A stretch of 64,000 nt of DNA from Kalaharituber pfeilii (taxonomy: Eukaryota; Ascomycota; Pezizomycetes; Pezizales; Pezizaceae), in the NCBI GenBank assembly GCA_015179045.1, contig WHUZ01000078.1:62001-126000 (forward strand). Direction: 5' to 3'. Position numbers and translations under genes: made by a program. The notes beneath the pieces are model-generated. The model was given only the letters and a program-made list of their open reading frames with translations. It made no database searches and was not told the origin of the DNA. Each line of letters begins with the position of its first letter. Position 1 is the first letter of the stretch. This document shows positions 4,066 to 57,023 of the stretch, in pieces.

Positions 4066-4124
4066 TTCCCTGCCATGGCGAACAGCTACGAGCGGGGTCA
4101 CGTGAAAAAAAAAAAAAAAAAAAA
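4066..4124 (+). mobile_element. Hairpin-only retroposon, tail B
   Basis: The insert is only TTCCCTGCCATGGCGAAC... to GCGGGGTCACGTG (39 nt) plus about 20 A. It is flanked by AAGTGGTACTTGC at 4053-4065 and 4125-4137. The 5' end is 2 nt before the stem CCCTGC, which pairs with GCGGGG. It is the 3' end of a lineage-B LINE and nothing else. Confidence 0.88.
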
Positions 4125-4137
4125 AAGTGGTACTTGC

Positions 4138-5029
4138 CTTGAGTGGGTTGGTCTGTTCGAATGGGCCGATCTGCTCAAGAATTTGCCTATTCGAGAACAG
4201 GCCAGTCGGTTCCTGAACCAGATATGTTCGCCGGCAGACTGCAACATGTGGATATGCACATCAGAGCTTCCATAAGATACCCTTCTGCAGGTGATGCTAT
4301 CAAGCCAAGTCCTCACAGGGTACTGTTGTGGTTGTAACCACGGTACCGATGGAAAGCATAAGGCTAAACGCGGGCCGGAACGCCACTCATCGGTAGGGCT
4401 ATATGATGATGCGTATATATGGTAAGTAAGCGAGCTCATATTTAGCAAGCGAGATCTGGATGTATAGGATCAGTTGGAAGGAGAAGGTGGTCTATAAATT
4501 GATGTAGATAGGACTGTATGGGCAAGCAAGCAAGCAGCAACAGACATGGATGCGCAGATATGGATAGATCAGACAGACCAGACACGCACAGAAGACAATT
4601 GAAGGCCCTTTCCTTGACATTTGACCATTGAGACCGCCCTTGAGACTTCGTTCCGCCAGCTCTAGATAACGGTACCCGTGCGAAACAGTGGATGCTGTTG
4701 AGCCGTCATCACACTGCCTGTTGGGCATTTGAAGGTGTTCTGCCCGAGTGGCAGTGCCACCATCACTGATCCCGTGTCACGTCTCTGGAACATACCAGAC
4801 AACGTAAAATCTAAAGTCACGTGACCAGCCTGACGCTAGTACATTTTTGCTGATGAAGTTGCCGTATCGGCAAACCGTTCAACAATGGCATATTACTGTA
4901 CCATGCATCTCATTCAGCCGAACGATACCTGTTAAATAATACTAACCATAGCCCCGTTCGAATGATCGACCAATACATTGGTAAGCGAGTCTTTCGGGTT
5001 CAGTAGCCATCCGCCGGTACGAGGATGGC
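4138..5029. other. Stretch without a recognised gene; weak TTCG-type repeat at its start
   Basis: From 4140 to about 4235 the sequence (GTTCGAATGGGCCGATC, TATTCGAGAACAGGCCAG, GTTCGCCGGCAG) resembles, at a distance, the TTCGCGAA-rich repeats at 53868-53990 and 55396-55536. The rest holds no motif-bearing frame. Confidence 0.35.
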
Positions 5030-6294
5030 ATGCGCCACGGCTCGCAAAATGTGAAACGCGCTTATGCAGTTTCTACTCTTTGTACAACACTAGTCAAAGA
5101 CAATAGCATTGTGTGAGGATGCACCAGATCGTATTTTGTTAGTTGGGAACCGTACGTATTATGATGTAACATCGTAGGAAAATTAGATGACATTGACATA
5201 AATCGCATGATTTGAGGGTAGCTAGTGTCGGAATAGCCGTCGTATCATAGAGTAGGCATAGCGCTATTTACAGTACTTTCTAAGCGCAAGTCCCCAGCAC
5301 GGGAGCGCTATCCACCGATCTGCATCCCCCACCTCCACGTTTCGTCACGGGTAAAAATTAATGGTTCAAATATTAACATCAACGCGGTTTTCTCGGCTAC
5401 CCCATGCATAATTTAGGCTTCGGAAATCACCGAGCAAGGCATAATGAACGCATAATAAGAGGGCACATCTATTTAAGGTTACCTGTGTTCCCCTGCATCG
5501 GATCTGAAATCCATGGTACTCTCCAGCTGTTACGAGATTGGATGTTACACACGTGTGACAGATCAGACGAAGGTTTTGAAGTGCCATTATAGGCCATACT
5601 ATAGAGCGAGTGCGTTATCAATGGGTTTCAGCTTGGTATAAGTAGTTCAAGTAGTGCATCGGTACATAGCTGTCAATGTTGCCGTGCATACGCCCTGGGC
5701 GCGAACGGACGGGTGTCTCAATGAGATTCAAGCTCCGATGTGTTAACCTTTGCTCCAAGGAGCTCTACAAGGCATGTCGTGGATATTCGCGGTATGCGAT
5801 TGAATACGACATGTTTGCAAATACGAGCCATTGTCAATGCGCTAATGCACCTTGCAAATTAGAGATTGATTGTTGATTTCTTCACGGCTTCCCTGCAGGG
5901 CCAGTGATGTTAATCGGCATTGCCGTGGGAGCAGCAGCCAGATACAGGTCTCAGTCTTGGAACGCATAATCATACCTAGTTTACATTACCGAACTCAGAC
6001 TGAATGATGCAAACAAGATTTCATGCAAATGCGGAAGTCAAACAGTTGTCGAATTGCATCGATCCCGGTTTGTTGCAACCACTTTCACTGAAAATAAACT
6101 TCACGATCTTGTGTTCATGACCGGAGATGCGCGAGGTGAGCTTGATAGATGCCGAAGATGCCGATCTTCATGTTATACCGCACATCTGTTCTGAGCAGCT
6201 GTCCCTTCCTTGACCAAAATGCTATTGTATTGTATCAGACTGATAGGTGTCGCTGTCTTTATCAATGCTCACTCAATCAATGGCCCTGGAACAA

Positions 6295-6302
6295 CTATAA
6301 AG
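6295..6302 (+). promoter_or_regulatory. TATA-like box of precursor gene 1
   Basis: CTATAAAG lies about 200 bp before the ATG and is followed by a pyrimidine-rich leader. The same position is CTATATAG before copy 2 (minus strand, near 15719-15726) and CTATAAGG before copy 3 (19120-19127), so the box is kept although the flanks have diverged. Confidence 0.45.
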
Positions 6303-6504
6303 AGACTAACTTCCCTCAGTCAATCCGTTCCTTCTTTCCTCACCACCCACCGGTCAATCCTCTCTTCACATCATCCTTCCTCCTGGGCAACTTCATTTTA
6401 ATATCAACTACGCAGCTTTAGCTTCGAAAGCCTCTTAGTCTCCAACCCTTGGAACAAGCCTTTCTTCAAGCACCTACCTACTTCAAATCTAAAGCACGTT
6501 CAAA

Positions 6505-7161: not shown

Positions 7162-7773
7162 ATGCAATGTCAGATTAGGGGCAGTAAGTTAACATTAATG
7201 CAGCCGGACCTATTTGGAATGAAACTGATTTTAGAATGCTAGGACATGCAACGCTCAACGGGGAAGTACATAATTGTACAATCGTAAATCAACTGATGAA
7301 GGCGGGGATGGAATGTAGCCAACCACATAGTCCGCAATGGACTTGAGCTTTCCCATTCTTTATTTAATGAGTTTAAGTTATTTCAAATGTTCTGGGAGTA
7401 TATACAAAAAGGGATGGCATACTGGTTTGGGTTTCATTTGGATCTGGGATTTAGTTTGTGCTGGTTCTTGGTTGCCTTTCTCCTTAATTTTACTGCATTT
7501 TTGCCGCTTTCAGCGGAATTTTTGCTGTAGTTGAGGATTTCGGTTATGTCGTACTAGGAGAATAATATTATGAATTGGGAGGGAATTTTGGTGTCCTACA
7601 CAGTTGTTAGTTTTTATCTATCTAGTCAAATTTGAAGCCTTTGCCGGGAAATGCAGGTACTCTCATATTTAGCTATTTGAATGCGTAATTGATGATAGCA
7701 ATTATCTGTGACTGATGGCAAGGAGCACAAACAAAAGGGGTCTTAGTGCCTCTTGATAGTTCATTAGGGCTGC
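7162..7773. other. 3' flank of precursor gene 1
   Basis: This is the downstream part of duplicon 1. It shares the CACATAGTCCGCAATGGACT block with the flank of copy 3. The 65-codon frame at 7337-7534 is not convincing. No terminator motif was identified. Confidence 0.45.
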
Positions 7774-7835
7774 TTATCTCGCCGTAGCCCACAGGGCGGT
7801 GTGCGAGTGATGACATTAAAAAAAAAAAAGAAAAG
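7774..7835 (+). mobile_element. Hairpin-only retroposon, tail A
   Basis: The insert is TTAT plus the hairpin CTCGCCGTAGCCCACAGGGC...GCGAGTGATGACATT and an A-rich tail. It is flanked by TAGGGCTGC at 7765-7773 and 7836-7844. The 5' end is 4 nt before the stem CTCGC/GCGAG. Confidence 0.78.
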
Positions 7836-7844
7836 TAGGGCTGC

Positions 7845-8172: not shown

Positions 8173-8185
8173 AAGCGCGCTTCCC

Positions 8186-8225
8186 TGCCCTGCCTTGGCG
8201 AGCAGCTGCGCGCGGGGTCACGTGA

Positions 8226-8258
<33 letters not shown>
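8186..8258 (+). mobile_element. Hairpin-only retroposon, tail B
   Basis: TGCCCTGCCTTGGCGAGCAG...GCGCGGGGTCACGTGAC plus about 32 A is flanked by AAGCGCGCTTCCC at 8173-8185 and 8259-8271. The 5' end is 2 nt before the stem. The loop differs from other tail-B copies while the outer stem is kept. Confidence 0.87.
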
Positions 8259-8261
<3 letters not shown>

Positions 8262-9267: not shown

Positions 9268-9281
9268 AGGAACTACTTGAA

Positions 9282-10917
9282 GTGCCATCGTATGTTGACG
9301 ACCTGGCAGCAACGATCCTAGACTGGCACGGGTACTGGGATATGGGGCGGCTCAGGGAGAAGGTGAAGGTGGCGATGGCGGAGGTGGCGGAGGAAGACCA
9401 GATCCCGCTGGAGGAGTCGAAGTGGGAGATGATAACCTTCGGGGTGGGAAGGAGGTGGAAGAAAGAGGGGGAGATGCTAAAGTGGTTAGGGGTCATCTTC
9501 GATGAGAACTTGACCTTTGGCGCACATTGGCGAAACAGGCTGAGCCGAGCGCGGAGGCTGGCGGGGGCTCTCTCGGGACTGGGCAACCGGAACTGGGGGA
9601 TGTCTCCACGCAGCTGGAGGCAAGCCTACATGGGGATGGTGAGGGCGGTTGCAATGTGGGGAAGCGAGATCGGGTGGAGGGGACAGAAGGAATGGAGGAA
9701 GGAGATGGAGAGAGTCCAGCTGCAGGTGTTGAAGAAGGCGGCTGGAGGAGGGAGAGGAGCGGGGGTAGGAGGGGTGAGTGCGGTGTGTGGAGTGGAGGAC
9801 GTGGAGACGGTCCTGGATGGCGCGCAAGCGAGGGCGATCGTCCGGGAGGTGGAGGCGCCGTCAGAGCTGGCGGAGCTTTGCACGGGCGACTTCGGAGGGA
9901 GTGAGGAGAGAGAGGAGGAGGCGAGAAACTGGAGAGACTGGGGGTGCAGTGGGCGGTGGTCGAGAATGAGGGGTATGAAGCAGTGCTGGACCGCTGGCAA
10001 GGTCAGTGGGCGAGGTTCTCGGAGGAGGGGGAGGAGATCTCGTGGGGAGGGGGGTGTGAGAAGGTGGAGGTGGAAGTGGTGGAGAGGCGGAAAGGAGAAG
10101 TGGAGACGAGGGGGAGTGGGAAGCCGCGATCGGGGAAGCCGGAAGAAAAAGGGCAGTCCTTTTCTCCGACGGCAGCAAGATCGAGGACAGCAAGGTGGGA
10201 GCAGGGGTGTGGGGGAGGTCGGCAGCCGTGGCGGAGGTGGTGGGGAGAACGGCGACGGTGTTCGATGGGGAGGTGAGGGGAGTGAGAAAGGCGCTGGAGA
10301 GTGTGGAGGAGGAGGTCCCTGTACTGATCTGTTTAGATTCTGAGGCTGCCGTCATGGCGATCCAGAAGGCAGGCAGGGAGGGAAAGGGGAAAACCGAGGA
10401 TGTGAGGAGAGTGGTGGATGCCGTAGCGAGGAGGAAGAAGAAGGGAGGGGATGCGAAGCTGATGTGGGTCAAGGCTCACATCGGAATCGCAGGAAATGAG
10501 AAGGCGGATGAGTGGGCGAAGAAGGGGACGGTGATACAGGGGAAGGAGGTGGCCACCGGAAGTGGGGTGCGCCAGAGGGTGAAGGCGTGGAGGAAGGAGA
10601 AGAGAGAAGTGGACGGCTTTGGAGGAGGAAAGGTCATGGAGTGGAATAGGATAGCAGTATCCAATTTCACTGCCTTGCGCCTGGAGAGAGGGAGGTGTGC
10701 GGTGTGGTTGAAGAGGATAGGGGCAGCTGAGTCGGATAAGTGCAGGTGCGGGGAGGTGCAAACCGGGGAACACCTCGCTTTCCGATGCAGAAGTCAGAAA
10801 AACCGCCCAGAAGGTTTTGAGAGGTGGAGCGACATGGGAAAGGATTGGAAAAGAAAGGCGGAGAATGGGGAGGAGTATGACGTTTTAGAGAATTTCTTCG
10901 CTGGGGTTAAGTTCTAG
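9282..10917 (+). pseudogene. LINE-B ORF2 fragment: end of RT, RNase H, C-terminal zinc finger
   Basis: The frame opens at YVDD, the RT catalytic box, then LGVIFDENLTFGAHWRNRL and SGLGNRNWGMSPRSWRQAY, both shared with the intact LINE-C ORF2. Two frame changes are evident. After ARNWRDWG near 9950 homology moves to the frame reading MQWAVVENEGYEAVLDRWQ, and near 10100 it moves to the frame reading AVLFSDGSKIEDSKVGAG, the start of RNase H. From there the frame is open to the stop at 10917, with RNase H motifs LDSEAAVMAIQKAG and WVKAHIGIAGNEKADEWAKK and a CRCG...H...C finger. It lacks endonuclease and most of RT, so it cannot move by itself. Confidence 0.87.
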
Positions 10918-11040
10918 AAGCTAGGAGAGTGGGGTGACGGTGTGTGGGGTCATGTACGTAGAGAGTTAGTTTAGCCTGTCTCCGGGCTATGAGGGCTTGC
11001 CCAGGACCCTGCCATGGCTTAGTGCTACAAGCGGGGTTAT

Positions 11041-11072
<32 letters not shown>
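9282..11072 (+). mobile_element. 5'-truncated Tad-type LINE (lineage B), 1.8 kb
   Basis: The insert is flanked by the perfect 14-bp duplication AGGAACTACTTGAA (9268-9281 and 11073-11086). Truncation occurred within the reverse transcriptase just before the catalytic motif (VPSYVDDLAATI). It ends with the lineage-B tail CCCTGCCATGGCTTAGTGC...GCGGGGTTATGTGATTT and poly(A). A shorter copy of the same lineage is at 58559-59279. Confidence 0.93.
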
Positions 11073-11074
<2 letters not shown>

Positions 11075-11086
11075 GAACTACTTGAA

Positions 11087-11633: not shown

Positions 11634-11647
11634 CTGTCACAGCCATG

Positions 11648-11704
11648 TTTTTTTTTTTTTTTTGTATCACATGACCCCGCTTGTAGCTGTTCGCCATGGC
11701 AGGG
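11648..11704 (-). mobile_element. Hairpin-only retroposon, tail B, reverse
   Basis: A T run followed by GTATCACATGACCCCGC...CCATGGCAGGG is flanked by CTGTCACAGCCATG at 11634-11647 and 11705-11718 (14 bp). On the minus strand the element starts exactly at CCCTGCC, the first base of the stem. Confidence 0.9.
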
Positions 11705-11737
11705 CTGTCACAGCCATGTGGATATGCGTGCATAGTA

Positions 11738-16487: not shown

Positions 16488-16523
<36 letters not shown>

Positions 16524-16560
16524 CATTACTCGCATGCCGCCTTGTAGGCTATGGCGAGGG
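16488..16560 (-). mobile_element. Hairpin-only retroposon, tail A, reverse
   Basis: A run of about 32 T, then ATGTCATTACTCGCATGCCG...GGCTATGGCGAGGG, is flanked by GTAACCAGGGATAA at 16474-16487 and 16561-16574 (14 bp, perfect). Read on the minus strand the element starts 2 nt before CTCGCC. Confidence 0.92.
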
Positions 16561-16930
16561 GTAACCAGGGATAAGGCTGTGTGGGAGCCAGGACCCTGAC
16601 ATGGATCTCAGATGTGATACAGGGGATTAACGTTCATTTCTCTAAAAATATAAATGCACCGTCTTACCATGCGTTCGTTACGCCTTCCTCGGTCCATTTC
16701 CGTAGTGTAAATCATGCAAGAAGCAGCCGAGAAAACCAAATTAACCTTAATTCTGAAACCTTAACTTTACCTTTGGCCGGGGAGACATGTTATGCATACA
16801 TCAGGGCATGTAGAATGGTGGCTATCGCTGCCGTGCTACGCACATGTACCTATACTACGGCCATGATTAACCTGGAAACCAAGCCTGGTTGCACTATCTC
16901 CCAAAGAGGAGTTGCATTATTCCGATAGGG

Positions 16931-21014: not shown

Positions 21015-21028
21015 GTGCCATCCTAGGT

Positions 21029-21087
21029 GCCCTGCCATGGCGAACAGCTGCATGCGGGGTCACGTGAAAGGGAGGAAAAAAAAAAAA
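21029..21087 (+). mobile_element. Hairpin-only retroposon, tail B
   Basis: GCCCTGCCATGGCGAACAG...GCGGGGTCACGTG plus an A/G-rich tail is flanked by GTGCCATCCTAGGT (21015-21028) and GTGCCATACTAGGT (21088-21101), one mismatch in 14. The 5' end is 1 nt before the stem. The impure A tract (AAAGGGAGGA) and the mismatch point to some age. Confidence 0.82.
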
Positions 21088-21367: not shown

Positions 21368-21381
21368 AAATGACAGCTTCC

Positions 21382-21445
21382 ACCCTGCCATGGCCAAGTG
21401 CTACAAGCGGGGTTATGTGATTAAAAAAAAAAAAAAAAAAAAAAA
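21382..21445 (+). mobile_element. Hairpin-only retroposon, tail B (LINE-B subtype)
   Basis: ACCCTGCCATGGCCAAGTG...GCGGGGTTATGTGATT plus poly(A) is flanked by AAATGACAGCTTCC at 21368-21381 and 21446-21459. The loop and TTATGTGATT match the tail of the LINE copies at 9282 and 58559. The 5' end is 1 nt before the stem. Confidence 0.92.
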
Positions 21446-21524
21446 AAATGACAGCTTCCGAAACGATCGTCAAAACAGCTTCCTTATAAATGACGGTCAA
21501 AACAGCTCCCGAAATGGCTCTCAA

Positions 21525-21578
21525 AAATTTTTTTTTTTGTCACGTGACCCCGCGCGCAGCTGCTCGCCAAGGCAGGGC
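21525..21578 (-). mobile_element. Hairpin-only retroposon, tail B, reverse
   Basis: A T run, then GTCACGTGACCCCGCGCG...CCAAGGCAGGGC, is flanked by ATGGCTCTCAA at 21514-21524 and 21579-21589. It lies 80 bp from the forward copy at 21382. Read on the minus strand the element begins 1 nt before CCCTGCC. Confidence 0.87.
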
Positions 21579-21589
21579 ATGGCTCTCAA

Positions 21590-22773: not shown

Positions 22774-22787
22774 ACAGTACTTCGTAT

Positions 22788-22850
22788 CTCGCCATAGCCC
22801 TTGGCATGCGAGTACTGATGTGAAAAAAAAAAAAAAAAATAGAAATAAAA
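22788..22850 (+). mobile_element. Hairpin-only retroposon, tail A
   Basis: The insert starts exactly at CTCGCCATAGCCC, reaches GCGAGTACTGATGTG and ends in an A-rich tail. It is flanked by ACAGTACTTCGTAT at 22774-22787 and 22851-22864 (14 bp, perfect). Confidence 0.93.
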
Positions 22851-23533: not shown

Positions 23534-23569
23534 AGAAAGATTGGCATTTTTTTTTTTTTTTTTTTTATT

Positions 23570-23610
23570 CACGTAACCCCGCATACAGGCTACCAGCCTA
23601 TGGCAGGGAC
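23570..23610 (-). other. 3' hairpin (tail C) of LINE-C
   Basis: On the minus strand the outer stem CCCTGC pairs with GCGGGG. An inner stem is formed by ATAGGCT and AGCCTGTAT around a GGT loop. The same outer stem is used by tail B with different inner sequence. It lies directly before the poly(A), the place where LINE reverse transcriptases engage their template. Confidence 0.75.
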
Positions 23611-23699
23611 CCATATACCCGGGTCAGGTTTGAGACAACTAACTACGGAATCTACATACACCCTTGAGCACCCAGTGCCCTCCGTCCCCCGGTCCCCGG

Positions 23700-26600
23700 C
23701 TACCCCAGATCGAGGCAGGCAAACCAGTACTCGACCGGGTCACCTTCCACGCCTTCTTGCTTCCATCCTTTCTCCTCTAGGTCCTCCCAGGACTGCCAGG
23801 TGACATGTGCCCCATTTTTGTTCTTCCTCTGGGGCCGCTCCAGTTCTGTGCATCTGAACACCACATGCTCAGCACTCCATGCCTCACCACATGTGCATTG
23901 TACCTCCTCGCCACTGACCATCCTCCTCCACATAGCTCCGCCTTTTCCAGTCCGCAGCCATGTGTAATTTGTGAGTGCTCTCCTGCCCCACTTTACGAAT
24001 TTGCCCTTCCCAAACCCTGCACGCCCCCTCTCCTCTTTTCTTTTTCGAACTAACTCTTGACGCAGCCCACCCTCAGTGGCCTGCCCATCATACCTCATGC
24101 CCTTGGCCCCCTCTTTGGCCAACTCATCCGCCTTCTCATTGCCTTCAATCCCCACGTGGGCTTTGACCCATGCCAGCTTCACTGCATCCGCCTTCCTTAG
24201 CCTCCGCCGCCTCTCTGCAATCAGCTCTATCACCCGCGCTAGGTCTGCGGTTCTTGCCTTGCCAGTTTTTCCTGCTTTCTGGACTGCACTGATAGCTGCC
24301 TGAGAGTCTGCGAGTAGTAGTACTTTTGCACTGCCATCAACTGCTTCAAGGGCACCCCTCATTCCTGAGACCTCACCGTCCCACACAGTTGCCTTTGTGC
24401 CTACCCACCGGGACCCCTCTGACTCACCTGCTACCACCTGCCTCCAGCACCATCCGCCACCAACACCGCCTTCCTCACTGCGGCTGCCGTCTGTAAAAAT
24501 AGCCACCGAGTCACCCTTAGCCTCATTGATGGCCTTTTCCCATTTGGCTGGGGCGTCTTCCTTGCACAACTTGAGGTCAATGACCTCAACGCCTGTCTGT
24601 GGTAGGTGTACATCTCGCCCCCAGGACACTCTCTCCTCCTCATTGACCTCGAGAGTGCTGGCAATCTTTCCAGCTACTGACTCAAACCCATCATTTTTGT
24701 CTGTAGCATAACTCAAGCTAAAGTCTCTCCAGTCCCTCCCCCTTTCACCCTCTCTGTCTGGGTCTGGGGCTACCATTCCAGTGAAGCTTTCCGGCCATAA
24801 ATCTCCAACTCCTGTAGGGTCCCTCACTGATCTTAGTGCATATCTTGCTTGGCCTTGATCGAGAATCGTCGTTACACTCTCTACTCCAGCAATGGCCTCG
24901 ACCTTTACTCTCGCTGCCCCTCGGACTGCACCAGTGCATTTGCGAAGTGCTTGATACTGCAACTTCTCAAACTCCTCTCTCCACTGCTTCTGGCCTCTCC
25001 ACCCAATTTCGGACCCCCAAAGGGCCACTGCCCTTACCATGCCTGTATAAGCCTTTCTCCATGAGATAGGACTCATACCCCATTGAGAGTTGCCTAGCCC
25101 AGACAGCGCGCCCATGAGTTTCCTGGCTTTCTCGATCCGGCTTTTCCAGTGGAGGTCGAAATCAAGAGTGCTATCACAAATCACCCCTAGCCACTTGCAC
25201 CTCTCAACATCTGCCCTTCTCTTGGTCTTCTTACCCATGACTAGGACCTCCTCCTTTGAGGTCTCCAGTGGTAGATCGTGAGCTTCAGCAACCTCCCTGA
25301 GTACTCCTGCAATTCTCTCCCCAATTCTCCTCATATCCTTTCCTCCTTCCCAATCCAGAATAACACAGTTCATATCATCTACAAATGAGGGCAGCTCCAC
25401 TTCACAGTCTCTCACTGTTGTAGCTACCTTTGTTTCCATCTCTTCTAGAATTGGTGCCATGTATATGAGGAACACAACTGGGGATAAAGGCGAGCCCTGC
25501 GGCACGCCTACATTCGATCTGCCATTGCCCCTCACCTGTCCATCCCATTCCACCTCAAACTCTCGCTCCCGGAAGAAGGTTTCTAACCAGGGTAACCATT
25601 TCTCAGCTTTAGAACCCTGTACTCGGTGCTTGACCATATCCCATCGTGTGTTCCCAAAGCCTCCCTTGACATCCTCCATAATCCACACTGCCCCACCGCC
25701 ACGTGCCAGGGCTCTCTGGCTCTTCACAACTGCCCGAAATAAGGCATCAATTGCAGACCTTCCTCTCACTCCTCCAAACTGCCCATGGTGGAATAGTCCA
25801 GCTTCTTGCAAGTCATCAGCAACCACCTTCTCCATCAGTTTTCCCACACAATTGATGAGTTGAATAGGCCTCCAGCTCTTTGCTTGCGTAAGGTCCCTGC
25901 CAGACTTCGGGATCATGATCACCTTGCTGAATTGCCAATCCTTCGGCATCCTGGCTGCAGCCAGCTCAGCAGCCAGCTCCTTTATTAACTGCCCTCCTAG
26001 CACTGTTTTATTGACCAGCTTGATGAATCTATAGCTGATGCCATCAGGCCCTGGAGCTGAACGGCTCGAGGTGCCTGCAAGTGCCTTGCATAGCCTCTCA
26101 GTCAGCTTTTTTACATTGGAGGTCCATTCGTCTGTCATGCTCTGCGGGCCCGAGTTCACTGGTAGGTCCAATGTTGTCAGGGAAATTGATGCCGCCTGTA
26201 AATTCGACGCCGCCAGCGAATTCGACACTACTGGTGAATTCGGCACTGCCGGCGAATTCGACACCGCTCGCGAATTCGATGCCGCTGGCGAATTCGATAC
26301 CGCCGGCAAATTTGGATTTGACATTGCCGGTGAATTTGATACTGCCAGTGAAGTTAATGCCGCTGGCGAGGTTGGCACTGCTGGCGGATCCGACGTCGCC
26401 TGATATTTGAAGTTTCTCTGTACCAGGCCTCTCACCTTCTCCTCGTCTGTCCTCCATATATCACCATTGTCACCTACAAGGTCACCCATTTTTCCTCTTA
26501 ACTTCCAAGGGTCCTTTGCTACTCGGATCACATCCCATGGGTCCTTAGAGCTGTTTTCCTCTGTAAACTGTTCCCAGCACTCCTTTTTCTTTCGTCTTAT

Positions 26601-27617
26601 GATATACTTGAGGGTCTTAACCCGCTCTTTCCACCGTAGGAGTCTGGCTCTCTCCCATGCTTTGGCTCCCTGTCCCTTCCCCCCTCGGCCCTCCTTCCTC
26701 ACTGCCTTCGCTGCCTCTTCTACCTTCTTATCCCACCACAACTTACTTCTTGATGATGCACGTATCTCCCTCTTCAGACTCTCTCGAAGCTTGCAGGTCT
26801 TCTCATATGCAGTCCCTCCTTCAAGGCTTCGGTACCACTCCCATTGTTCTGAAGCCTTCTTTTGCATGATTTCTTGGATCAAATCCTCTGCCTTATCCCA
26901 ATCCACTCCTCTTCTTATTTCAGTTTTGCCTTGGCTGCTACTACAAGTCCCCCAGACTACTGCATGGTCTCCACATAACCACTCTGGATCTTCGTTTTGC
27001 CATCCAAATTCCCCATACTTCCAGACTAGATCTAGAACACTCTCTCTGACCTGCCCTTCAACTTCTCTTGCCCATGTTGAAACCCCTTTCCTTGTTTCCA
27101 GAAGCCAGCCTGTGCCTTCCAAACCCTCTTTGAGTGCCCTTCCCCTTGGGTCAGGCCCTCTGTCTAGTTTGGACCATGCTGGATGGTGTGCGTTAAAGTC
27201 CCCCAGTAGTACTGTGCTAGACTGCAGGCCTCCTGGGCCTCTCAGCCTTCCCCATCTGTCCATCCAATCCTCCAAGGTCTCCAAATTCGTATCTGGATGG
27301 ATATATACTCCTCCCGCTCTGCCACCTCCTTCTACCTCACACCAGACCCACCCTTTCGTCTCTTCAATCACTTTCCACTCCTGGGTCCCTTTCCTTGCAT
27401 GAGCCACTACCCTCTTGCCACTTTCAACTCGGCTGATGACCTCATAAGCTGGATGCCTTGTTGTGACCCACTCTCCTCCTTTCTCTGCAACCCATGCTTC
27501 TCCTATAAAGATCACATCTACTTTCTCTCTATTTGCCCATTCCAGAATAATATCACTATTTCTGAGAGAACCTCCAACATTCTGGAATGCCACCTTCATC
27601 CTCTGTTCAGTAACCAT
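23700..27617 (-). CDS. LINE-C ORF2: endonuclease, reverse transcriptase, RNase H
   Basis: This 1305-residue polymerase makes the element's DNA copy at a nick it cuts itself. The N-terminal APE-type endonuclease shows FQNVGG at 11, E40 in IGEAW, LLGDFNAHH (D140, N142) and CGDHAVVWG (D217, H218). A linker with a six-residue repeat (about 405-475) precedes the RT: PKSGRD, SWRPIQLINCVGKLMEKVV, QFGGVRGRSAIDALFRAVV, GVPQGSPLSPVVF and the catalytic FVDD near 746 (F where most LINEs have Y). RNase H follows (IFTDGSRSEEGG near 1040; VKAHVGIEGNEKADELAK near 1155), then a CTCG...H...C finger near 1245. Domain order is that of the Tad1 clade. The ATG lies inside the ORF1 stop region; a second Met is at residue 7. 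Confidence 0.94.
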   Translation of the reverse strand: MVTEQRMKVAFQNVGGSLRNSDIILEWANREKVDVIFIGEAWVAEKGGEWVTTRHPAYEVISRVESGKRVVAHARKGTQEWKVIEETKGWVWCEVEGGGRAGGVYIHPDTNLETLEDWMDRWGRLRGPGGLQSSTVLLGDFNAHHPAWSKLDRGPDPRGRALKEGLEGTGWLLETRKGVSTWAREVEGQVRESVLDLVWKYGEFGWQNEDPEWLCGDHAVVWGTCSSSQGKTEIRRGVDWDKAEDLIQEIMQKKASEQWEWYRSLEGGTAYEKTCKLRESLKREIRASSRSKLWWDKKVEEAAKAVRKEGRGGKGQGAKAWERARLLRWKERVKTLKYIIRRKKKECWEQFTEENSSKDPWDVIRVAKDPWKLRGKMGDLVGDNGDIWRTDEEKVRGLVQRNFKYQATSDPPAVPTSPAALTSLAVSNSPAMSNPNLPAVSNSPAASNSRAVSNSPAVPNSPVVSNSLAASNLQAASISLTTLDLPVNSGPQSMTDEWTSNVKKLTERLCKALAGTSSRSAPGPDGISYRFIKLVNKTVLGGQLIKELAAELAAARMPKDWQFSKVIMIPKSGRDLTQAKSWRPIQLINCVGKLMEKVVADDLQEAGLFHHGQFGGVRGRSAIDALFRAVVKSQRALARGGGAVWIMEDVKGGFGNTRWDMVKHRVQGSKAEKWLPWLETFFREREFEVEWDGQVRGNGRSNVGVPQGSPLSPVVFLIYMAPILEEMETKVATTVRDCEVELPSFVDDMNCVILDWEGGKDMRRIGERIAGVLREVAEAHDLPLETSKEEVLVMGKKTKRRADVERCKWLGVICDSTLDFDLHWKSRIEKARKLMGALSGLGNSQWGMSPISWRKAYTGMVRAVALWGSEIGWRGQKQWREEFEKLQYQALRKCTGAVRGAARVKVEAIAGVESVTTILDQGQARYALRSVRDPTGVGDLWPESFTGMVAPDPDREGERGRDWRDFSLSYATDKNDGFESVAGKIASTLEVNEEERVSWGRDVHLPQTGVEVIDLKLCKEDAPAKWEKAINEAKGDSVAIFTDGSRSEEGGVGGGWCWRQVVAGESEGSRWVGTKATVWDGEVSGMRGALEAVDGSAKVLLLADSQAAISAVQKAGKTGKARTADLARVIELIAERRRRLRKADAVKLAWVKAHVGIEGNEKADELAKEGAKGMRYDGQATEGGLRQELVRKRKEERGRAGFGKGKFVKWGRRALTNYTWLRTGKGGAMWRRMVSGEEVQCTCGEAWSAEHVVFRCTELERPQRKNKNGAHVTWQSWEDLEEKGWKQEGVEGDPVEYWFACLDLG
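26190..26403 (-). repeat. 18-bp in-frame minisatellite in LINE-C ORF2
   Basis: About ten to eleven imperfect 18-bp units (type GCCGGCGAATTCGACACC on the plus strand) translate on the minus strand to repeats such as SNSPAV, SNSPAA, PNSPVV and SNSLAA. They lie between endonuclease and RT. The unit is a multiple of three, so changes in copy number keep the frame. Confidence 0.85.
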
Positions 27618-29562
27618 TACGTCGGAACCGCTTCCCTGCTGGCATATAGCTCGCCAGCTCTGGCCCTAGCCCTGGCCTCTTCAAAGAGTCTCTAGTAGAT
27701 ACAGTTGCACACTCCCTTCGCTGGTGCCCCATACCACCACACTGCCAGCACGTCCTACTGGCTGCTTTGACTCCCTGTTGTTTCTGACTTTGGTAGGCCC
27801 TCGGCGGCTGGTGTGTGCACTCTCTCTGCTGATGTCCCTTCCTGCCACACTGCCAGCATGTTCTTTCGAAGGCTGCTGCTGGTACTGATACTGGTGTTGC
27901 TACTGGTACTAGTAGAGAGCTTGCATTTACTCCTCCTTTAGCGGGTGCAGACCCTCTCACTGCTAGTGGCTTGTAAACTTCTACCTTTCGGAGGTCATTT
28001 CCAAGCTTCACTCCCTCTTTAACTAGTCTTTCTGCTTCCTGTACACTGGTTACCTCAAACTTAACTGCTGTAGTTCTCATTGTTTGCCATGCGTTTGGGC
28101 CAACTCTCTCCGGCCATCTCGCTCCGAAAATGCCCCTAGTAGTTATGTTTTCTGCTGCAAGGGCCTCATGCAGCTGTCTTCTATTAGAGAGCCCCTCTAC
28201 AGGAACTCCCTTCGCGATTAGGGGAACTGTTCCTGATTGCTCAGCCCAAACATTCAGTAGGTCCCCTCCAAACACAGCCTCCAGCTGACACTGTAGTATT
28301 CTTATAACTTCTGCTTCTTTCATCTCCCAGGGTGCTTCAATGATACGCCATCTCCTCTCATACCTCGAAACCATAGCATTCTCCTTGATACCTACTACTC
28401 GGAAAAGCCTTCTCTTCTCCCCTCGTTCTAATGCTCGAAGGGCTGTATTTGCTGCTTCTAATTGTTTCTGTTTTGCTTCCTCTGTTGTACCTACTGATAC
28501 CTCCTTGTGTAGTGAAATCATCACCCACTTGCGCATCTTAGTAGTGCCAACTACCTGCCAGGAACTACCCTCGGCTCTGGTTGTACCTGTTTCTGCATGT
28601 TCTGCAGCCACTCTGGCCTCCGAAGCCTTTGTAGCAGCTTCCTGCGCCTCCTCTTCTGCTTTCTTTATCTCTGCGGCTGTGCTACTTTTCTTCTTTATAT
28701 CATAGACTGCGAGCTCTTTTCTCTTGAGTTCCACATCTGCTTCATCAGCTGCAATTCTCGCAGCCTGCACTATGTCCAATCTTTGTTTTTCTCGATCTGC
28801 TGCCTCTTGAGCATCCTTTTCTGACTTCTTTCGTTGGGCCTGATCCTTTTCTTCCAGAGCTTTCGCTTTTGCTAAGGCCTTCTCAGCTGCTCTTCTTGCC
28901 TCAACCTCACGGTTCCTCTTCTTGACTTCCTCCTCCTTCCGTTTTGCTGCATCCTTTTCCTCAATGGAGGCAACTCCTAGCTTGACAACTACACTTGCAA
29001 GACTCTCTTCCAGCCTTCTCAGTCTTTGATTGATTGCCCTTGTTTCTCTTGCCTTCTGGTTTTCCTTTTCCTTCTTCCACCACTTTTCACACTCCCGAAG
29101 TGCCTTAACTTTATCTTCATGCTGGTTTTCAATTCTCAAGAAGTCTTCTACTTCTCTCCACCCTTTGCCATCAGCTCCTTTTCGATTCTCAATAATGTCA
29201 CCTAATCGAGCTGCTGCATCGCCAACCCCTGATGCGCTTCGTGCTGCTCCTGCTCCCTTACGCTTTTCCCATGCTTCCTTGAGAATCTTGAGGTCATGTA
29301 GCAATCGTAGAACTTGGATTGCATCTGCTCCTTCAAGCTCCTCAGGTTCCTCTGCTTCTACTTCTTCTGTTTCTTCTACTTCCTCTGCTTCCTCCACTTC
29401 GCTGCTGTCCTTCAATTCAAGAGTCTCTCTCGCTAGCTGATCTCTAGCCAACTCACTATCACGTTTCCGTTTCCTGGTACCATCTGCTGTGATGTGGGTC
29501 TCAAAGTCTACCTCCATCTGCTCACTGCTTCCAGTTTCCTGCTGGTCGAGAAAGATTGGCAT
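27607..29562 (-). CDS. LINE-C ORF1: nucleocapsid-like protein with coiled coil and two CCHC knuckles
   Basis: The 651-residue frame has an acidic segment (EEAEEVEETEEVEAEEPEEL, about 57-76), a long charged coiled coil rich in A/E/K/R (about 190-335), a region that may hold an RRM-like fold (about 390-560) and two zinc knuckles, CWQCGRKGHQQREC (569-582) and CWQCGGMGHQRREC (605-618). Such ORF1 proteins coat element RNA and are known to form the RNP with ORF2. The first ATG (29560-29562) lies in the target-site duplication. The element's own start is more likely Met16 (MEVDFETH, 29517). The stop TGA overlaps the ORF2 start in ATGGTTACTGA. Confidence 0.9.
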   Translation of the reverse strand: MPIFLDQQETGSSEQMEVDFETHITADGTRKRKRDSELARDQLARETLELKDSSEVEEAEEVEETEEVEAEEPEELEGADAIQVLRLLHDLKILKEAWEKRKGAGAARSASGVGDAAARLGDIIENRKGADGKGWREVEDFLRIENQHEDKVKALRECEKWWKKEKENQKARETRAINQRLRRLEESLASVVVKLGVASIEEKDAAKRKEEEVKKRNREVEARRAAEKALAKAKALEEKDQAQRKKSEKDAQEAADREKQRLDIVQAARIAADEADVELKRKELAVYDIKKKSSTAAEIKKAEEEAQEAATKASEARVAAEHAETGTTRAEGSSWQVVGTTKMRKWVMISLHKEVSVGTTEEAKQKQLEAANTALRALERGEKRRLFRVVGIKENAMVSRYERRWRIIEAPWEMKEAEVIRILQCQLEAVFGGDLLNVWAEQSGTVPLIAKGVPVEGLSNRRQLHEALAAENITTRGIFGARWPERVGPNAWQTMRTTAVKFEVTSVQEAERLVKEGVKLGNDLRKVEVYKPLAVRGSAPAKGGVNASSLLVPVATPVSVPAAAFERTCWQCGRKGHQQRECTHQPPRAYQSQKQQGVKAASRTCWQCGGMGHQRRECATVSTRDSLKRPGLGPELASYMPAGKRFRRNGY

Positions 29563-30651: not shown

Positions 30652-30658
<7 letters not shown>

Positions 30659-30683
<25 letters not shown>

Positions 30684-30724
30684 ATTTCATTACTCGCATG
30701 CCGCCCTATGGGCTATGGTGAGGG
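30659..30724 (-). mobile_element. Hairpin-only retroposon, tail A, reverse
   Basis: T run, then ATTTCATTACTCGCATGCCG...GGCTATGGTGAGGG, flanked by GGAATACTGGGAT at 30646-30658 and 30725-30737. D copy 1 has no insert at this point (about 37380). On the minus strand it begins 2 nt before the stem. Confidence 0.9.
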
Positions 30725-30890
30725 GGAATACTGGGATATTAGCAATGGAAAAGTATTGTAGAGAGACACTCTAAAGCTATAAAATAGATACATATATAGT
30801 AAGATGGTTTTCGGAAACTGCTGGCAGCACTAGCTGGTGGATACATGCCATTAGATACTGTTAGTAAGATTATGCATGTGCGAAAGCGAT

Positions 30891-40300: not shown

Positions 40301-40355
40301 TTTTTTTTTTTTTTTTATATCATTAATCGCGTGCCGCCCTAAGGGCTATGGCGAG
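40301..40355 (-). mobile_element. Hairpin-only retroposon, tail A, in the NLR pseudogene
   Basis: T run, ATATCATTAATCGCGTGCCG...GGCTATGGCGAG, flanked by GCCTTTTCATAA (40289-40300 and 40356-40367). On the minus strand the insert starts exactly at CTCGCC. Confidence 0.92.
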
Positions 40356-41308: not shown

Positions 41309-41401
41309 TTTTTTTTTTTTTTTTTATATCATTACTCGCAGACCGCCCAATGGGCTATGGCGAGGTATTTAAAGAAAGAAAAGAGTAACCATCCCTAACT
41401 A
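41309..41401 (-). mobile_element. Short LINE tail A with 3' UTR, reverse
   Basis: T run, tail-A hairpin and about 40 nt of 3' UTR, flanked by CTCGGGCCACGTTT (41295-41308 and 41402-41415). It sits at the junction between NLR debris and LINE ORF1 sequence. Confidence 0.9.
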
Positions 41402-49215: not shown

Positions 49216-49617
49216 ATATAAGCTTCTCCTGTGGGGATCACAATTCCTTGGGAACTGGACGTATCTTTGAGATTTTTTCTCTTGGGAATAATTGGGTTTA
49301 GCGTTACAATTTAAGCTGTGAGTTGCAATATCGGAAATTGGATAGGAATCATCCGGTAATCGACGACCAACCTCATGAGCTGACGATAAATCTCCAGAAT
49401 TCTGTTGTTCTCGGGGCCATGAGAAGAGAAATATAGATAACTGTACACAATCGCACAGGATTACTGTTCCCTGTGACGGTGTGAAATATTAACAACAATT
49501 CGCCCACTGTACGCCCTGTACTACCAAAACTCAGCTTCTTGATATTCGCAGAAGCAGGTACTTATCGTTACCAATAAATTGCAATTGGCGGAAAGCAAAT
49601 CTAAATTGCGCGCTACT
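49216..49617. promoter_or_regulatory. Upstream region of the sugar transporter gene
   Basis: About 400 bp between the LINE end and the ATG at 49618. I cannot define a TATA box or a specific operator. The insertion close upstream could have altered regulation (inference). Confidence 0.35.
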
Positions 49618-51330
49618 ATGGATCCCGAGAAACCCCCCCTCACCGAACTCGTCAATACCGAAACCACGGTCTCTGAGCCCACAATTTCCGGCAATTGCAC
49701 CCCCACCTCCCAGAAACCTCCGGTATCACAATTCACAACCTCCGCGCCTCCTGCCGGCTCTTCCGCTCCGCTGCCACCCCTCCTCCTCCTCTACTCCCTC
49801 CTCGCCTGCTCCGGCGCATCATACTTTGGCTACACGTCCGCAATGATCGGCGGCTGTATCGAGCTTCCCTCTTTCCAGCGCACATTTTCTCTCTCTCTAA
49901 ACACCAACACTATCCCCTCCAATATCCTCTCCTTCATCTACATCGGCACTCTCCCCGGTAGCCTCTTCATTCTTCCCCTCTCAAACGTCCTCGGACCCCT
50001 CCATTCCCTGTCCATTTCGTCCCTGGTCTACATCGTCGGTTGTCTACTCCAGCTCTTCTCAAACGGGTCCATACCCCTCCTATACACAGGGCGCATCCTC
50101 TCCGGTCTTGGAATGGGGGCTTCCGTGTCCATTGCCCCAATGTACATCTCGGAGATCTCCCCCTCCGCCGTCCGCGGGCGCCTCGTAGGTCTCCACGAAA
50201 TCTCATTCCAGCTCACTGCGGTGCTCGGCTTCTGGATCAATTACGGCACCAAACGGGGAATTTCCGACGACAACGCCGCGCAATGGATGGTGCCCATGGG
50301 CCTCCAACTTGTACCTGCTGCCACTCTCCTCCTCTCCGCCCTGTTTCTCTTACCACAATCACCCCGTTTCCTCGTGCGTCGCGGAGCACACGACTTGGCA
50401 CTCCAAACCCTCTCCCACATCCGCCAGCTTCCGCCCACACACCCGAGCGTCGCCACCGAGCTCTCCGAAATCGTCACCGACCACCACAACATCATGTCCA
50501 GACTCCACAACAACAGCGAACCTGCGCCGCGGTGGCTCCCCGGTGCTCTACGCCCACTGCATACCCTCTTCACCGTACCGCCGTACCCCTCCCTTCTCTT
50601 GCTTGGCTCCCTCATGATGCTCTTCTTCGACTTTACTGGCACCATCGCACTACTCGCTTATTCGCCCCGCATCTACCGCGGTCTTGGCTTCAGTTCCGAC
50701 ACCCCACTGCTCCTCACTGGAGTTTTTGGCGCTTGCAAGGGGCTGTCATCGATCCTCTCTTCGTTCTTTCTTATTGATCGCTGGGGGCGCAGGCCCCTTC
50801 TCATCTGGGGCCCCGTCGGCTGTTCCCTAACCATGTTCTACATTGGCGGATATCAGCTTCTATCCGCATCCCAAACCCCCACTGCCACTGCAACACATGA
50901 AGCCGACCTCACCCCCCCACGAATCCTCGCCCTCGTCGCCACCTATCTCTTTGCCGCCTTCTTCTGCCTCTCCTCCCAAGTTCCCTGGATCTACTGCGCC
51001 GAAATTTTCCCCACCCACCTCCGCACCCTCGGTGTCTGCATCACCACAGCCGTCCAGTTCGGCGCCGAGCTCATCCAGGCTAAAGCGGTGCCGTACATGC
51101 TATCGACTATGGGTAGGGGTGGCGGAGGCGCGTTTTTGTTTCATGGAGCATGTGCGGCAACTATGGTCGCGTGGGTGTTCTGCTGCGTGCCGGAGACGAA
51201 GGAGGTGAGCTTGGAGGAGATGCAGGGGAGGTTCCGCGGAGGGAGCATGTGGCTGTGGGGTTTGAAAGGGAGGGCTGCGGACAGGGGTAGCAGTAGCGAA
51301 GGCGCGGGGGAAGGTGCAGCAGCTGGGTGA
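49618..51330 (+). CDS. MFS sugar transporter (sugar porter family)
   Basis: The 570-residue protein starts at ATGGATCCC (49618); the open frame extends 13 codons upstream without an ATG. After a polar N-terminus of about 55 residues it has some 12 hydrophobic segments. Family signs: GYTSAMIGG in helix 1, GRILSGLGMGASVSIAPMYI, SEISPSAVRGRLVGLHE, PQSPRFLVRRG (usually PESPR) before the central loop, DRWGRRPLLIWG, then FCLSSQVPWIYCAEIFPTHL, RTLGVC and the C-terminal VPETKEVSLEEM. These are the conserved motifs of fungal hexose or related sugar uptake proteins in the plasma membrane. The sugar cannot be read from sequence. The gene is a single exon, intact, with GC-rich third positions, unlike the repeats around it. 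Confidence 0.92.
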   Translation: MDPEKPPLTELVNTETTVSEPTISGNCTPTSQKPPVSQFTTSAPPAGSSAPLPPLLLLYSLLACSGASYFGYTSAMIGGCIELPSFQRTFSLSLNTNTIPSNILSFIYIGTLPGSLFILPLSNVLGPLHSLSISSLVYIVGCLLQLFSNGSIPLLYTGRILSGLGMGASVSIAPMYISEISPSAVRGRLVGLHEISFQLTAVLGFWINYGTKRGISDDNAAQWMVPMGLQLVPAATLLLSALFLLPQSPRFLVRRGAHDLALQTLSHIRQLPPTHPSVATELSEIVTDHHNIMSRLHNNSEPAPRWLPGALRPLHTLFTVPPYPSLLLLGSLMMLFFDFTGTIALLAYSPRIYRGLGFSSDTPLLLTGVFGACKGLSSILSSFFLIDRWGRRPLLIWGPVGCSLTMFYIGGYQLLSASQTPTATATHEADLTPPRILALVATYLFAAFFCLSSQVPWIYCAEIFPTHLRTLGVCITTAVQFGAELIQAKAVPYMLSTMGRGGGGAFLFHGACAATMVAWVFCCVPETKEVSLEEMQGRFRGGSMWLWGLKGRAADRGSSSEGAGEGAAAG

Positions 51331-55067: not shown

Positions 55068-55177
55068 GTACTATTGTTTGTACATAGATGACTGCATAGG
55101 GGGATAGGAGACTGTGGAAATTGCTTAGCTGGCTGTATGATAGATCACTATTACATTAAATCATAAGCGAGTATATA

Positions 55178-55354
55178 GGGGGGGGAGAGAACGTTGGCGG
55201 AGGTGATGGACTGGGCGGCGGAGTAACCGGTCATATTTTCACTTTATCTCCTTATCTGTTACTTATTTCTCCGTTGATTATCATTCATGTATCTAAACCC
55301 TCGCCATAGCCTGCAAGGCGGCATGCGAGTAATGATATAAAAAAAAAAAAAATC
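55178..55354 (+). mobile_element. 5'-truncated LINE end, lineage A
   Basis: Insert of 177 bp with 3' UTR, CTCGCCATAGCCTGCAAGGC...GCGAG and poly(A), flanked by AGCGAGTATATA (55166-55177 and 55355-55366). Confidence 0.85.
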
Positions 55355-55395
55355 AGCGAGTATATATATTACATATAGGTACATCGAGGTACATT

Positions 55396-55536
55396 CATGT
55401 TCGCCGCTGGGCCAGGTGTTCGTGGCTGGGCTGGCCCCGTGAAAAACACCATATGTTTTCACGGGGCCGGCCGGTTCACGAATCGGCTGGCCGGTTCGCG
55501 AACCGGAAAATGTTCGTCGGTGGGCCAGAACAGGGC
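55396..55536. repeat. TTCGCGAA-rich repeat, copy 2, opposite to copy 1
   Basis: GGTTCGCGAACCGGAAAATG, TTCGTCGGTGGGCCAGAACA and an inner stem CCCCGTGAAAA...TTTTCACGGGG. The right edge is the complement of the left edge of copy 1. It cuts into the MULE 1 transposase frame. Confidence 0.7.
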
Positions 55537-56352
55537 AATATGCTGGAAGATACGACTGGTGCAAAGTGATGAGGTACTGTTGGTACTGTGAAATGATCAG
55601 TGATATGACAACCAGCTGTTGTTAGTTCTCTTAATATCCGATTGATTCTTTCCTCAACAGTAATAGGAATTTTACTGCTATGACGGCTGTTATAGTATGC
55701 TTTAGGATTCAACTGCATTCCTTCTTCTGTACGAAGGTGTAAGGACATATTGTAACTCAATCCTGCTCACCTATACTGTATAGCATCTCCTACTGCTTGC
55801 TGATAATCAGTATTGCGACGTTTATGCTGGATATATATTAATGGATTTGGTGCCAAAGGATGAGTATGGATTTTATCTGATATCGCAAGCACCCAAGTAT
55901 CTGTTCCACTATCTATATCTACTCGCAAATTGATAGATATTGCCCATAGACATAGACATTCTTGGGCTTGTGTGTTGGTCTGGTGTCTGCGCTGTACTAT
56001 ATATATATTAGTACATAAGTCTTAATTGACATACCTTCAGAATTCTCTGCATCCAGTTTTCAAGTATCTCGGGCTTGCCATGATGTACACATCCATAGCG
56101 GATACGACCTTTCTTTTCAGACCCACTCAAAGTCACCACAGCGAAGCCTTTGGTAAATGCATAGTCCTGGAGTCTATCTAAAGCCATATTTGGCCATGCA
56201 TATTGCTCGCCATCCATGGGGTCTTCACAATGTAATTCAGGCATCTCTTCTACAACCTTTATTACTACCGAAACAAGCGCCTTTGGAAGGCTCGGGTGTG
56301 GAGTCCAGGTCTGTTTCGCACTCAAGGTACTGGTTGCAGTGGAGAGTGACAT
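55500..56352 (-). pseudogene. MULE 1 transposase, N-terminal part (FAR1-type DNA-binding region)
   Basis: Met at 56352 starts MSLSTATSTLSAKQTW. Then LDRLQDYAFTKGFAVVTLSG, SEKKGRIRYGCVHHGKP (a Cys/His finger typical of fungal MULE proteins) and EILENWMQRILK. A GTATGT...ACCAG intron of 55 nt (56034-55980) leads to TNTQAQECLCLWAISINLRV and THPLAPNPLIYIQHKRRNTD. A TGA follows YQQAVGDAIQYR, after which the frame reads on as SYNMSLHLRTEEGMQLNPKA and RINRILRELTTAGCHI. The catalytic DDE part is absent. So the protein is broken by a stop and by loss of its core. An intact relative elsewhere would be needed to move it. Confidence 0.78.
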
Positions 56353-56964
56353 TTTAGTGAGCGCAAAGCAAGTATAGGGCAGAAAAATTAAATAAGGACT
56401 CGCGAGTACTATATGAATATATGTATCGGCTGGAAAATATCTGGGATGTAAAGTGCGTGAAGCCTTTGTAACTGTGTTGGAGTCTTGCAAAAATGAAAAT
56501 CTCAAAACCAGTAGCTACAGTGCGAATTATCAAAGAAAAATTTCCCAGTTCGGAGAGTTAGGCGCCACTGATTACCCTGCACCGAAAATATCTGCCGCAC
56601 CAAGACAGTCTGCCACACCAAGACAGTGAGCTCAGCCGCACCATATGCAAGACGGGACAGTCAGTTATGCAACCTTCGGGACAGTCAGGACAGTCAGGAC
56701 AGTCCAAAAGGACTGTCCGGAGACATCCCGCAGGGCAAGGTCTATAGAGAGTAATGGTACTCTGGTATTAAGGTAGTAGCAATTGGTATAAATTTATGCT
56801 TGCTGATAGAATAAAGCAATTAAAGAATTGGCTCATCATATACTTACTACTTTGGTGTATATTTGCTATACAAAACACTAGTGATTATATTAAGAACATA
56901 GAAATGCTGCTTATAGAGTAGTATATTAACTACAGTGAGGTATATTATGTGTACGGTAGAATAT

Positions 56965-57023
56965 TTTTTTTTTTTTTTTTTTTTATATCATTACTCGCGT
57001 GCCGCCCTAGGGGCTATGGCGAG
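56965..57023 (-). mobile_element. Hairpin-only retroposon, tail A, in element F
   Basis: T run, ATATCATTACTCGCGTGCCG...GGCTATGGCGAG, flanked by ACGGTAGAATAT (56953-56964 and 57024-57035). On the minus strand it starts exactly at CTCGCC. Confidence 0.92.

Follow-up and report, generated by a model that had tools for sequence, protein, structure and literature searches.

Hairpin-only copies of LINE 3' tails in Kalaharituber pfeilii with 5' ends at the base of a predicted RNA stem

Short insertions that consist of the 3'-terminal hairpin of a long interspersed nuclear element (LINE) and a poly(A) tract were analysed in a stretch of 64,000 nucleotides from Kalaharituber pfeilii (GenBank assembly GCA_015179045.1, contig WHUZ01000078.1, positions 62,001 to 126,000 of the forward strand; the whole stretch is referred to as the window) and in copies sampled elsewhere in the genome (78 Mb, 360 contigs). 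The 5' ends of these hairpin-only copies pile up at the base of the hairpin stem: they account for 87 of 195 distinct sampled copies (54/69, 10/20, 22/86 and 1/20 in the tail families B, B3, A and B2), and in B and B3 they start at the first paired base of the predicted RNA stem. It appears probable to us that these inserts were reverse transcribed from discrete 3'-terminal fragments of LINE mRNA, the 5' end of which would be set by the stem. We rate the hairpin-only copies as a new form of LINE-driven retroposition and not as an independent element; stringent LINEs and their 3' stem-loops as such are already known (PMC4176376).

Twelve inserts of this type had been noted in the window in a preliminary description made from the letters alone, and all twelve were found to comprise a LINE 3' hairpin and poly(A) between direct repeats, the make-up of a 5'-truncated LINE copy (Table 1). 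A de novo scan of the window for poly(A) tracts between exact repeats recovered ten of them with such repeats and the inserts at 21029 and 22788 as poly(A) tract only; a second script, which examined the twelve noted places and tolerated a single mismatch and a gap, resolved 12/12. Between 35 and 47 nt of hairpin sequence precede the main A run, and the direct repeats, confirmed at all twelve places, measure 9–15 bp, a range slightly wider than the 9–14 bp given before, with one mismatch at 21029. The repeats are strong in ten inserts (E <= 7.3e-3) and weak by score in those at 7774 (E 2.4) and 22788 (E 0.86), because the 3' repeat of these two lies 6 and 11 nt beyond the A run. By eye, the 5' ends in the window lie 0–4 nt upstream of the first paired base, as had been described, with the exception of the insert ending at 40354, which starts at most 1 nt inside the stem and to which a C of the target may belong.

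Beyond the window, copies were sampled by the 3' edge of the hairpin together with the poly(A), and as the search pattern is located at this end, copy length did not bias the sampling. Four tail families were distinguished: tail A with the stem CTCGC/GCGAG; tails B and B3 with the stem CCCTGC/GCGGGG and a second stem of 7 bp approximately 35 nt upstream; and tail B2, which shares the outer stem of B and B3 and differs in the inner part. The patterns matched 436 (A), 298 (B), 253 (B3) and 157 (B2) places genome-wide, the reversed pattern giving 0 matches for each of the four families. They cover the 3' arm of the stem at least in part, and inserts ending before that arm fall outside the sample, as does a second tail A subfamily (173 places). 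Places were taken in contig listing order (A 90/436, B 70/298, B3 20/253, B2 20/157; the B2 set represents 20 of the first 21 listed places, one on contig C14 being left out), and removal of five segmental duplicates from these 200 copies yielded 195 distinct ones (A 86, B 69, B3 20, B2 20). In addition, copy L121, which carries an internal deletion, was removed from the tail A hairpin-only class, reducing it from 23 to 22. Chance repeats are ruled out as a general cause of the calls: swapping the 3' flanks among the sampled copies produced a false repeat in 54 of 1939 trials, 21 of these at less than 60 nt.

The 5' truncation of LINEs is usually ascribed to fall-off of the reverse transcriptase (RT) or to random breakage of the RNA. 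The resolved ends of B and B3, however, are not scattered as in ordinary 5'-truncated copies, but lie almost only at two stem bases. For the B copies resolved at <= 110 nt, the shortest-repeat rule assigns 52 to the first zone, 4 to the second and 2 to other positions (L060 and L142, both of which also fall in the hairpin class), with the corresponding numbers for B3 being 10, 4 and 0; the second zone is a separate start peak at the next 7-bp stem upstream (B 4/69, B3 4/20). Tail A mixes the hairpin class with scattered truncation. Here, 22 of the 37 ends resolved within 14–213 nt are found at 39–45 nt (23/38 if L121 is included, p 3e-24 against a uniform expectation of 3.5%), with most hairpin-only copies beginning 0–2 nt outside the stem, and an even spread through the last 200 nt was not seen; 18 further ends are scattered at 90–666 nt (of the 19 long A copies listed, L020 is counted instead amongst the starts inside the hairpin) and one lies at 51 nt. 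Random 5' truncation is therefore rejected as the cause of the pile-up in A, B and B3, since the ends gather at stem bases and do so again at the next stem upstream, in agreement with the preliminary description, although it occurs alongside in tail A. Later deletion from longer copies is likewise rejected where the repeats abut the hairpin. Hairpin-only and other copies are alike in poly(A) length (median 24 vs 23) and repeat length (median 13 vs 13 bp). As a separate observation, two distinct tail A inserts, L020 and L111, share the start AGGGCGGC, which lies inside the hairpin 25 nt before the poly(A) and may mark a second stop point.

The start is precise in tail B, in which 54/54 hairpin-only calls fit a single position, G-CCCTGCC: 29 are exact (including the 35-nt copy L146 after allowing a 3-nt internal deletion), 12 lack G, GC or GCC, which the target provides, and 13 carry extra bases ahead. 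The B copies with 36 or 37 nt, and one with 35 nt, thus fit the 38-nt start and do not reflect shorter RNAs, as the target repeat closes with GC, G and GCC, respectively. In 12 of the 13 copies with extra bases these mismatch the upstream LINE sequence as a whole, the base adjacent to the start matching in two (L139, L142). Genome-wide counts of single variants, made as exact sequence matches with the repeats not checked per copy, gave 387 copies of the exact B variant (ACAAGC) with G at -1 preceded by a base other than G, and 6 with another base at -1, the two search patterns differing by one base at the 3' end; a further 43 are LINE-attached (exhibiting the LINE's GGGG), a number that includes starts at the upstream stem. 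The TTGG...GCATGC variant is present in 97 unattached and 31 LINE-attached copies; copies with a target G directly before the start are contained in neither the 387 nor the 97. In B3, 10/10 sampled hairpin-only copies fit a start with A (A-CCCTGCC), and only 11 copies of the exact hairpin genome-wide do not have A at -1, the B3 pattern having 253 places. A copied cap G as the source of the first base is rejected because B3 starts with A. The base ahead of the fixed G in short B copies is T in 59, C in 29 and A in 12 cases (hand count of the first 100 of the 387 listed), which could reflect either a target preference or untemplated addition.

These counts also bear on the idea, raised in the preliminary description, that the inserts could be an independent element of about 40 nt, meaning a short retroposon that has a promoter and master copies of its own. 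The excess of 387 unattached over 43 LINE-attached copies of one exact B variant is what such an element could produce; however, both short variants that were counted have LINE-attached counterparts (43 and 31 copies, the latter for 97 short ones), short copies of B and B3 open with the base that the LINE itself carries there (G and A, respectively) and those of tail A show many hairpin variants, and hence this idea lacks support. Furthermore, short copies occur in four tail families (in B2 as one copy only), a promoter would have to initiate at the stem base in each of them, and there is no evident room for one within 38 nt. We therefore consider an independent retroposon exceedingly improbable.

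Folding with RNAfold gave -12.0 to -18.6 kcal/mol for six tail hairpins, and two strands of the upstream stem folded no better than shuffles (z 0.06 and 0.34). In the predicted structures the first base of the copies is paired, as G.U in B and A-U in B3, with A-U (B) and U-A (B3) at the upstream stem, where copies start within 0–1 nt of the first pair except for L138 (1–2 nt inside). Covariation supports the predicted hairpin of tail A: 95.0% of cells are paired, compared to a maximum of 93.7% in 500 shuffles (68/86 rows kept, 51 distinct), and 12 double changes were counted compared to a shuffle maximum of 7, with the shuffles not keeping relatedness. Tail B (65/69 rows kept, 19 distinct) showed no excess over shuffles, a test rendered uninformative by the uniformity of its rows. 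Together, the folds and the covariation of tail A describe the conserved 3' stem-loop typical of stringent-type LINEs. The terminal G.U pair of B is possible in RNA only, the equivalent in complementary DNA (cDNA) being a C.A mismatch. Were a longer cDNA to fold back on itself while single-stranded and be cut back or joined at that hairpin, the ends would likewise come to lie at stem bases, and 3' flaps beside a duplex are trimmed by known nucleases; yet the mismatched base should then be lost, and it is retained in 387 of 393 copies, which makes this route very improbable.

We thus favour a template RNA with a stem-defined 5' end, because of the one-nucleotide precision, the like behaviour of the second stem, the untemplated extra bases and the G.U argument. 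The LINE RNA would be shortened from its 5' side by a 5'-3' exonuclease or by precise cleavage, with shortening halting at the folded and probably ORF2-bound stem; the surviving RNA of approximately 38–42 nt plus poly(A) would keep the hairpin recognised by the RT and be primed at nicked genomic DNA, and the RT would then copy to the end of the RNA, sometimes adding a few bases, before the end is joined to the target. Precedents for single steps are found in published work: Xrn1 halts at the P1 base of xrRNA-D (PMC6299227), a minimal domain of 43 nt from RNA3 of beet necrotic yellow vein virus (BNYVV) stalls Xrn1 (PMC5869530), and an R2 template with a stable fold at its 5' end inserts better, which the authors read as protection from 5' decay (PMC11331408). 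As a further and more tentative step, one for which we hold the chances to be somewhat poorer than even, the LINE 3' tail might be a discrete RNA-end-forming module of approximately 38 nt, either exonuclease-stopping or self-processing, with the 38-nt poly(A) RNA as the actual mobile unit.

Alternatively, the RNA could be long, with the RT leaving right after it has copied the ORF2-bound hairpin, its anchor having been turned into an RNA:DNA hybrid, and being processive once beyond this point. Most resolved B copies are indeed hairpin-only and the rest mostly end at the next stem or are long; ORF2 of a stringent LINE binds the 3' stem-loop (PMC4176376); and a different ORF2 could account for the low rate in B2. 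Release by lost grip should nevertheless scatter over several bases, yet one base is common to 387 of 393 B copies; it must moreover recur at the second hairpin, and the untemplated extra bases fit run-off at an RNA end, even though end joining can add them too. On balance we regard RT release as unlikely, although it is the foremost rival and deserves serious consideration. The suggestion of the preliminary description that the template RNA may end at the base of the hairpin stands in so far as the pile-up fits such an end, whereas decay protection, processing and RT stopping are indistinguishable from the DNA alone.

Processing could also be intrinsic to the RNA, in that the 3' tail would be a small self-cleaving RNA that cuts at its own 5' edge in the manner of delta-like ribozymes and releases the 38-nt RNA. 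A start fixed to a single nucleotide at a 7-bp stem whose outermost pair is G.U would suit such a ribozyme, as would a potential pairing of CAU with (G/A)UG across the stem, seen by eye in the four tails. Against this, there is no Rfam ribozyme among the two matches found in the window at E up to 5, a conserved catalytic C was not seen by eye across the four tails, the second start site would require a second ribozyme, and a delta fold needs more length than a 38-nt tail offers. The nested double pseudoknot and catalytic C that define ribozymes of the hepatitis delta virus type were thus not found, and self-cleavage appears very improbable.

Several observations weigh against the favoured reading of a stem-defined RNA end. 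First, an RT stop at the same place would leave identical DNA. Second, tail B2, which has the most stable predicted hairpin (-18.6 kcal/mol), yielded the fewest hairpin-only copies (1/20), the other 19 exhibiting approximately 105 nt or more of LINE sequence by eye; simple stem stability is therefore not supported as the determinant, and the tail hairpins in general are only modestly better than shuffles (z -0.7 to -2.4). A stem of 3–4 bp lying between the two hairpins forms no start boundary. Third, the starts in tail A are less exact than in B (offsets of -1 to +5 from the first pair, mode +2), and some lie inside the hairpin: 6/86 in A with an accepted repeat and, by eye and without one, 3/69 in B (L075, L140 and L156; the repeat accepted for L140 lies at 293 nt and is weak). 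Fourth, no accepted repeat was in reach for 38/86 A, 10/69 B, 6/20 B3 and 19/20 B2 copies. By eye, most of those in A, B3 and B2 have LINE sequence upstream of the hairpin, and the ten in B comprise four joined to LINE sequence (L063, L077, L085, L135), four of hairpin-only appearance (L071, L153, L155, L158) and two (L075, L156) that seem to start inside the hairpin. Fifth, the repeat at the hairpin was given preference whenever more than one passed, and it is outscored by another in 5/54 B calls (L083, L131, L132, L142, L157) and 1/10 B3 calls (L176); in these six cases it was retained because the targets are repetitive, duplicated or another B copy. Finally, T before the start, considered as a sign of RT run-off, is not significantly commoner than in long copies (Fisher p 0.08).

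Of the nearest known systems, the inserts resemble the 5'-truncated copies of stringent-type LINEs such as ZfL2, UnaL2 and CR1, with which they share the 3' hairpin, a 3' repeat or poly(A) and target repeats, the parent elements also being alike in an APE-type endonuclease and RT; they differ in that the ends gather at the stem base instead of scattering, with single-nucleotide accuracy in B and B3, and in that the B sample holds more copies of the shortest class than of the others. Short interspersed elements (SINEs) that share a LINE 3' tail are similarly non-autonomous, with the LINE tail, poly(A) and target repeats, but have a head derived from a small RNA with an internal RNA polymerase III promoter, whereas no tRNA, 5S, 7SL or other head is present here and the insert is the LINE hairpin of 38–42 nt only. 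Similar in structural terms are the exoribonuclease-resistant xrRNA-D of plant viruses and the BNYVV coremin domain (43 nt minimal, PMC5869530), small structured RNAs with P1 and P2 stems: tails B and B3 also combine such predicted stems with a product 5' end at the base of P1, the stop position being that given in PMC6299227. The pseudoknot between loop and downstream sequence that xrRNA-D requires found no support by eye; in tail A the loop varies and the downstream sequence is constant. The size of xrRNA-D is comparable. The delta-like ribozyme of R2 also gives a retrotransposon RNA a precise and stably folded 5' end, but it sits at the 5' end of the element, while the structure described here is the 3' tail and has no delta fold. 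In the 3'-truncated retropseudogenes of small nuclear RNAs made by L1, truncation points cluster by RNA secondary structure as well (PMC4476161), although there it is the 3' end that lies within single-stranded segments, in connection with priming, and not a 5' end at a stem. No description of hairpin-only LINE copies with a fixed 5' end was found among the matches listed from searches of the open-access PMC literature, which is weak evidence of absence.

The longer copies in the window are LINEs, three of which are given in Table 1. The largest encodes ORF1 with a CCHC zinc knuckle and ORF2 with endonuclease, RT and RNase H, as judged from its open reading frames (ORFs) and Pfam, a layout resembling that of the fungal Tad1 group; a homology search with ORF2 gave 7 distant matches among 7998 scored candidates. 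Two sampled tails are unusual: L063 opens like A (CCTCGCC) and closes like B (GCGGGGTCACGTG), possibly as a recombinant or intermediate between tail families, and in L037 a foreign segment with its own hairpin-like sequence interrupts, by eye, the inner part of the tail A hairpin as if inserted there.

Table 1. Hairpin-only inserts and longer LINE copies in the window (lengths before the A run; 5' repeat positions given for the hairpin-only inserts).
Feature	Coordinates	Strand	5' repeat	Remarks
Hairpin-only, tail B, 39 nt + A22	4066..4126	+	4053-4065	13-bp exact, E 1.6e-5
Hairpin-only, tail A, 44 nt + A12	7774..7829	+	7765-7773	9-bp exact, 6 nt past A run; weak alone, E 2.4
Hairpin-only, tail B, 41 nt + A34	8186..8260	+	8173-8185	13-bp exact, E 1.1e-5
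LINE copy, B3-like tail, 1766 nt before poly(A)	9282..11047	+		14-bp repeat AGGAACTACTTGAA; kind of parent whose last hairpin is copied
Hairpin-only, tail B, 41 nt + A16	11648..11704	-	11705-11719	15-bp exact, E 9e-7
Hairpin-only, tail A, 41 nt + A32	16488..16560	-	16561-16574	14-bp exact, E 4.6e-6
Hairpin-only, tail B, start G-CCCTGCC; hairpin tail, short interrupted stretch, A12	21029..21087	+	21015-21028	14-bp, one mismatch, E 1.8e-4
Hairpin-only, tail B3, start A-CCCTGCC, 41 nt + A26	21382..21448	+	21368-21381	14-bp exact, E 4.6e-6
Hairpin-only, tail B, start G-CCCTGCC, 40 nt + A11	21528..21578	-	21579-21589	11-bp exact, E 7.3e-3
Hairpin-only, tail A with shortened hairpin, 35 nt + A17 + A-rich tail	22788..22839	+	22774-22787	14-bp exact, 11 nt past first A run; E 0.86 from gap penalty
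LINE copy, B2 tail, 5982 nt	23567..29548	-		14-bp repeat; ORFs; Pfam
Hairpin-only, tail A, 41 nt + A26	30658..30724	-	30725-30737	13-bp exact, E 1.7e-5
Hairpin-only, tail A with TCGC/GCGA stem, 38 nt + A16	40301..40354	-	40355-40367	13-bp exact, E 1.9e-5
Hairpin-only, tail A, 39 nt + A21	56964..57023	-	57024-57035	12-bp exact, E 8.4e-5
LINE copy, B3-like tail, 694 nt before poly(A)	58559..59252	+		14-bp repeat

Other features of the window are an integrase- and chromodomain-like coding stretch at 1-1960 (+), by eye apparently of a Ty3-type long terminal repeat retrotransposon; an open frame at 40480-41388 (+) with a match to the GPI inositol-deacylase winged-helix domain, a domain common in fungal NLR-like proteins; and a sugar transporter at 49543-51330 (+), with Kalaharituber pfeilii (46% identity) and Peziza echinospora (44%), both Pezizales, as best named relatives. 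The two Rfam matches in the window are sub-threshold and neither lies at a listed insert; a sub-threshold match at 61453-61565 to a plant microRNA family (32.2 bits against a cutoff of 73) is most likely due to chance.

The location of the ends at stem bases, fixed to a single nucleotide in one family counted in hundreds, makes the question of an RNA end versus an RT stop directly testable. If the RNA does end there, stable 3' fragments would be a productive template for retrotransposition, and approximately 38 nt plus poly(A) would be enough to recruit the whole machinery. Should the 38-nt end-forming module prove true, these inserts would be counted with the smallest retroposons that have both ends fixed, and the products of RNA decay, not only RT fall-off, would shape the copies that LINEs leave in the genome.

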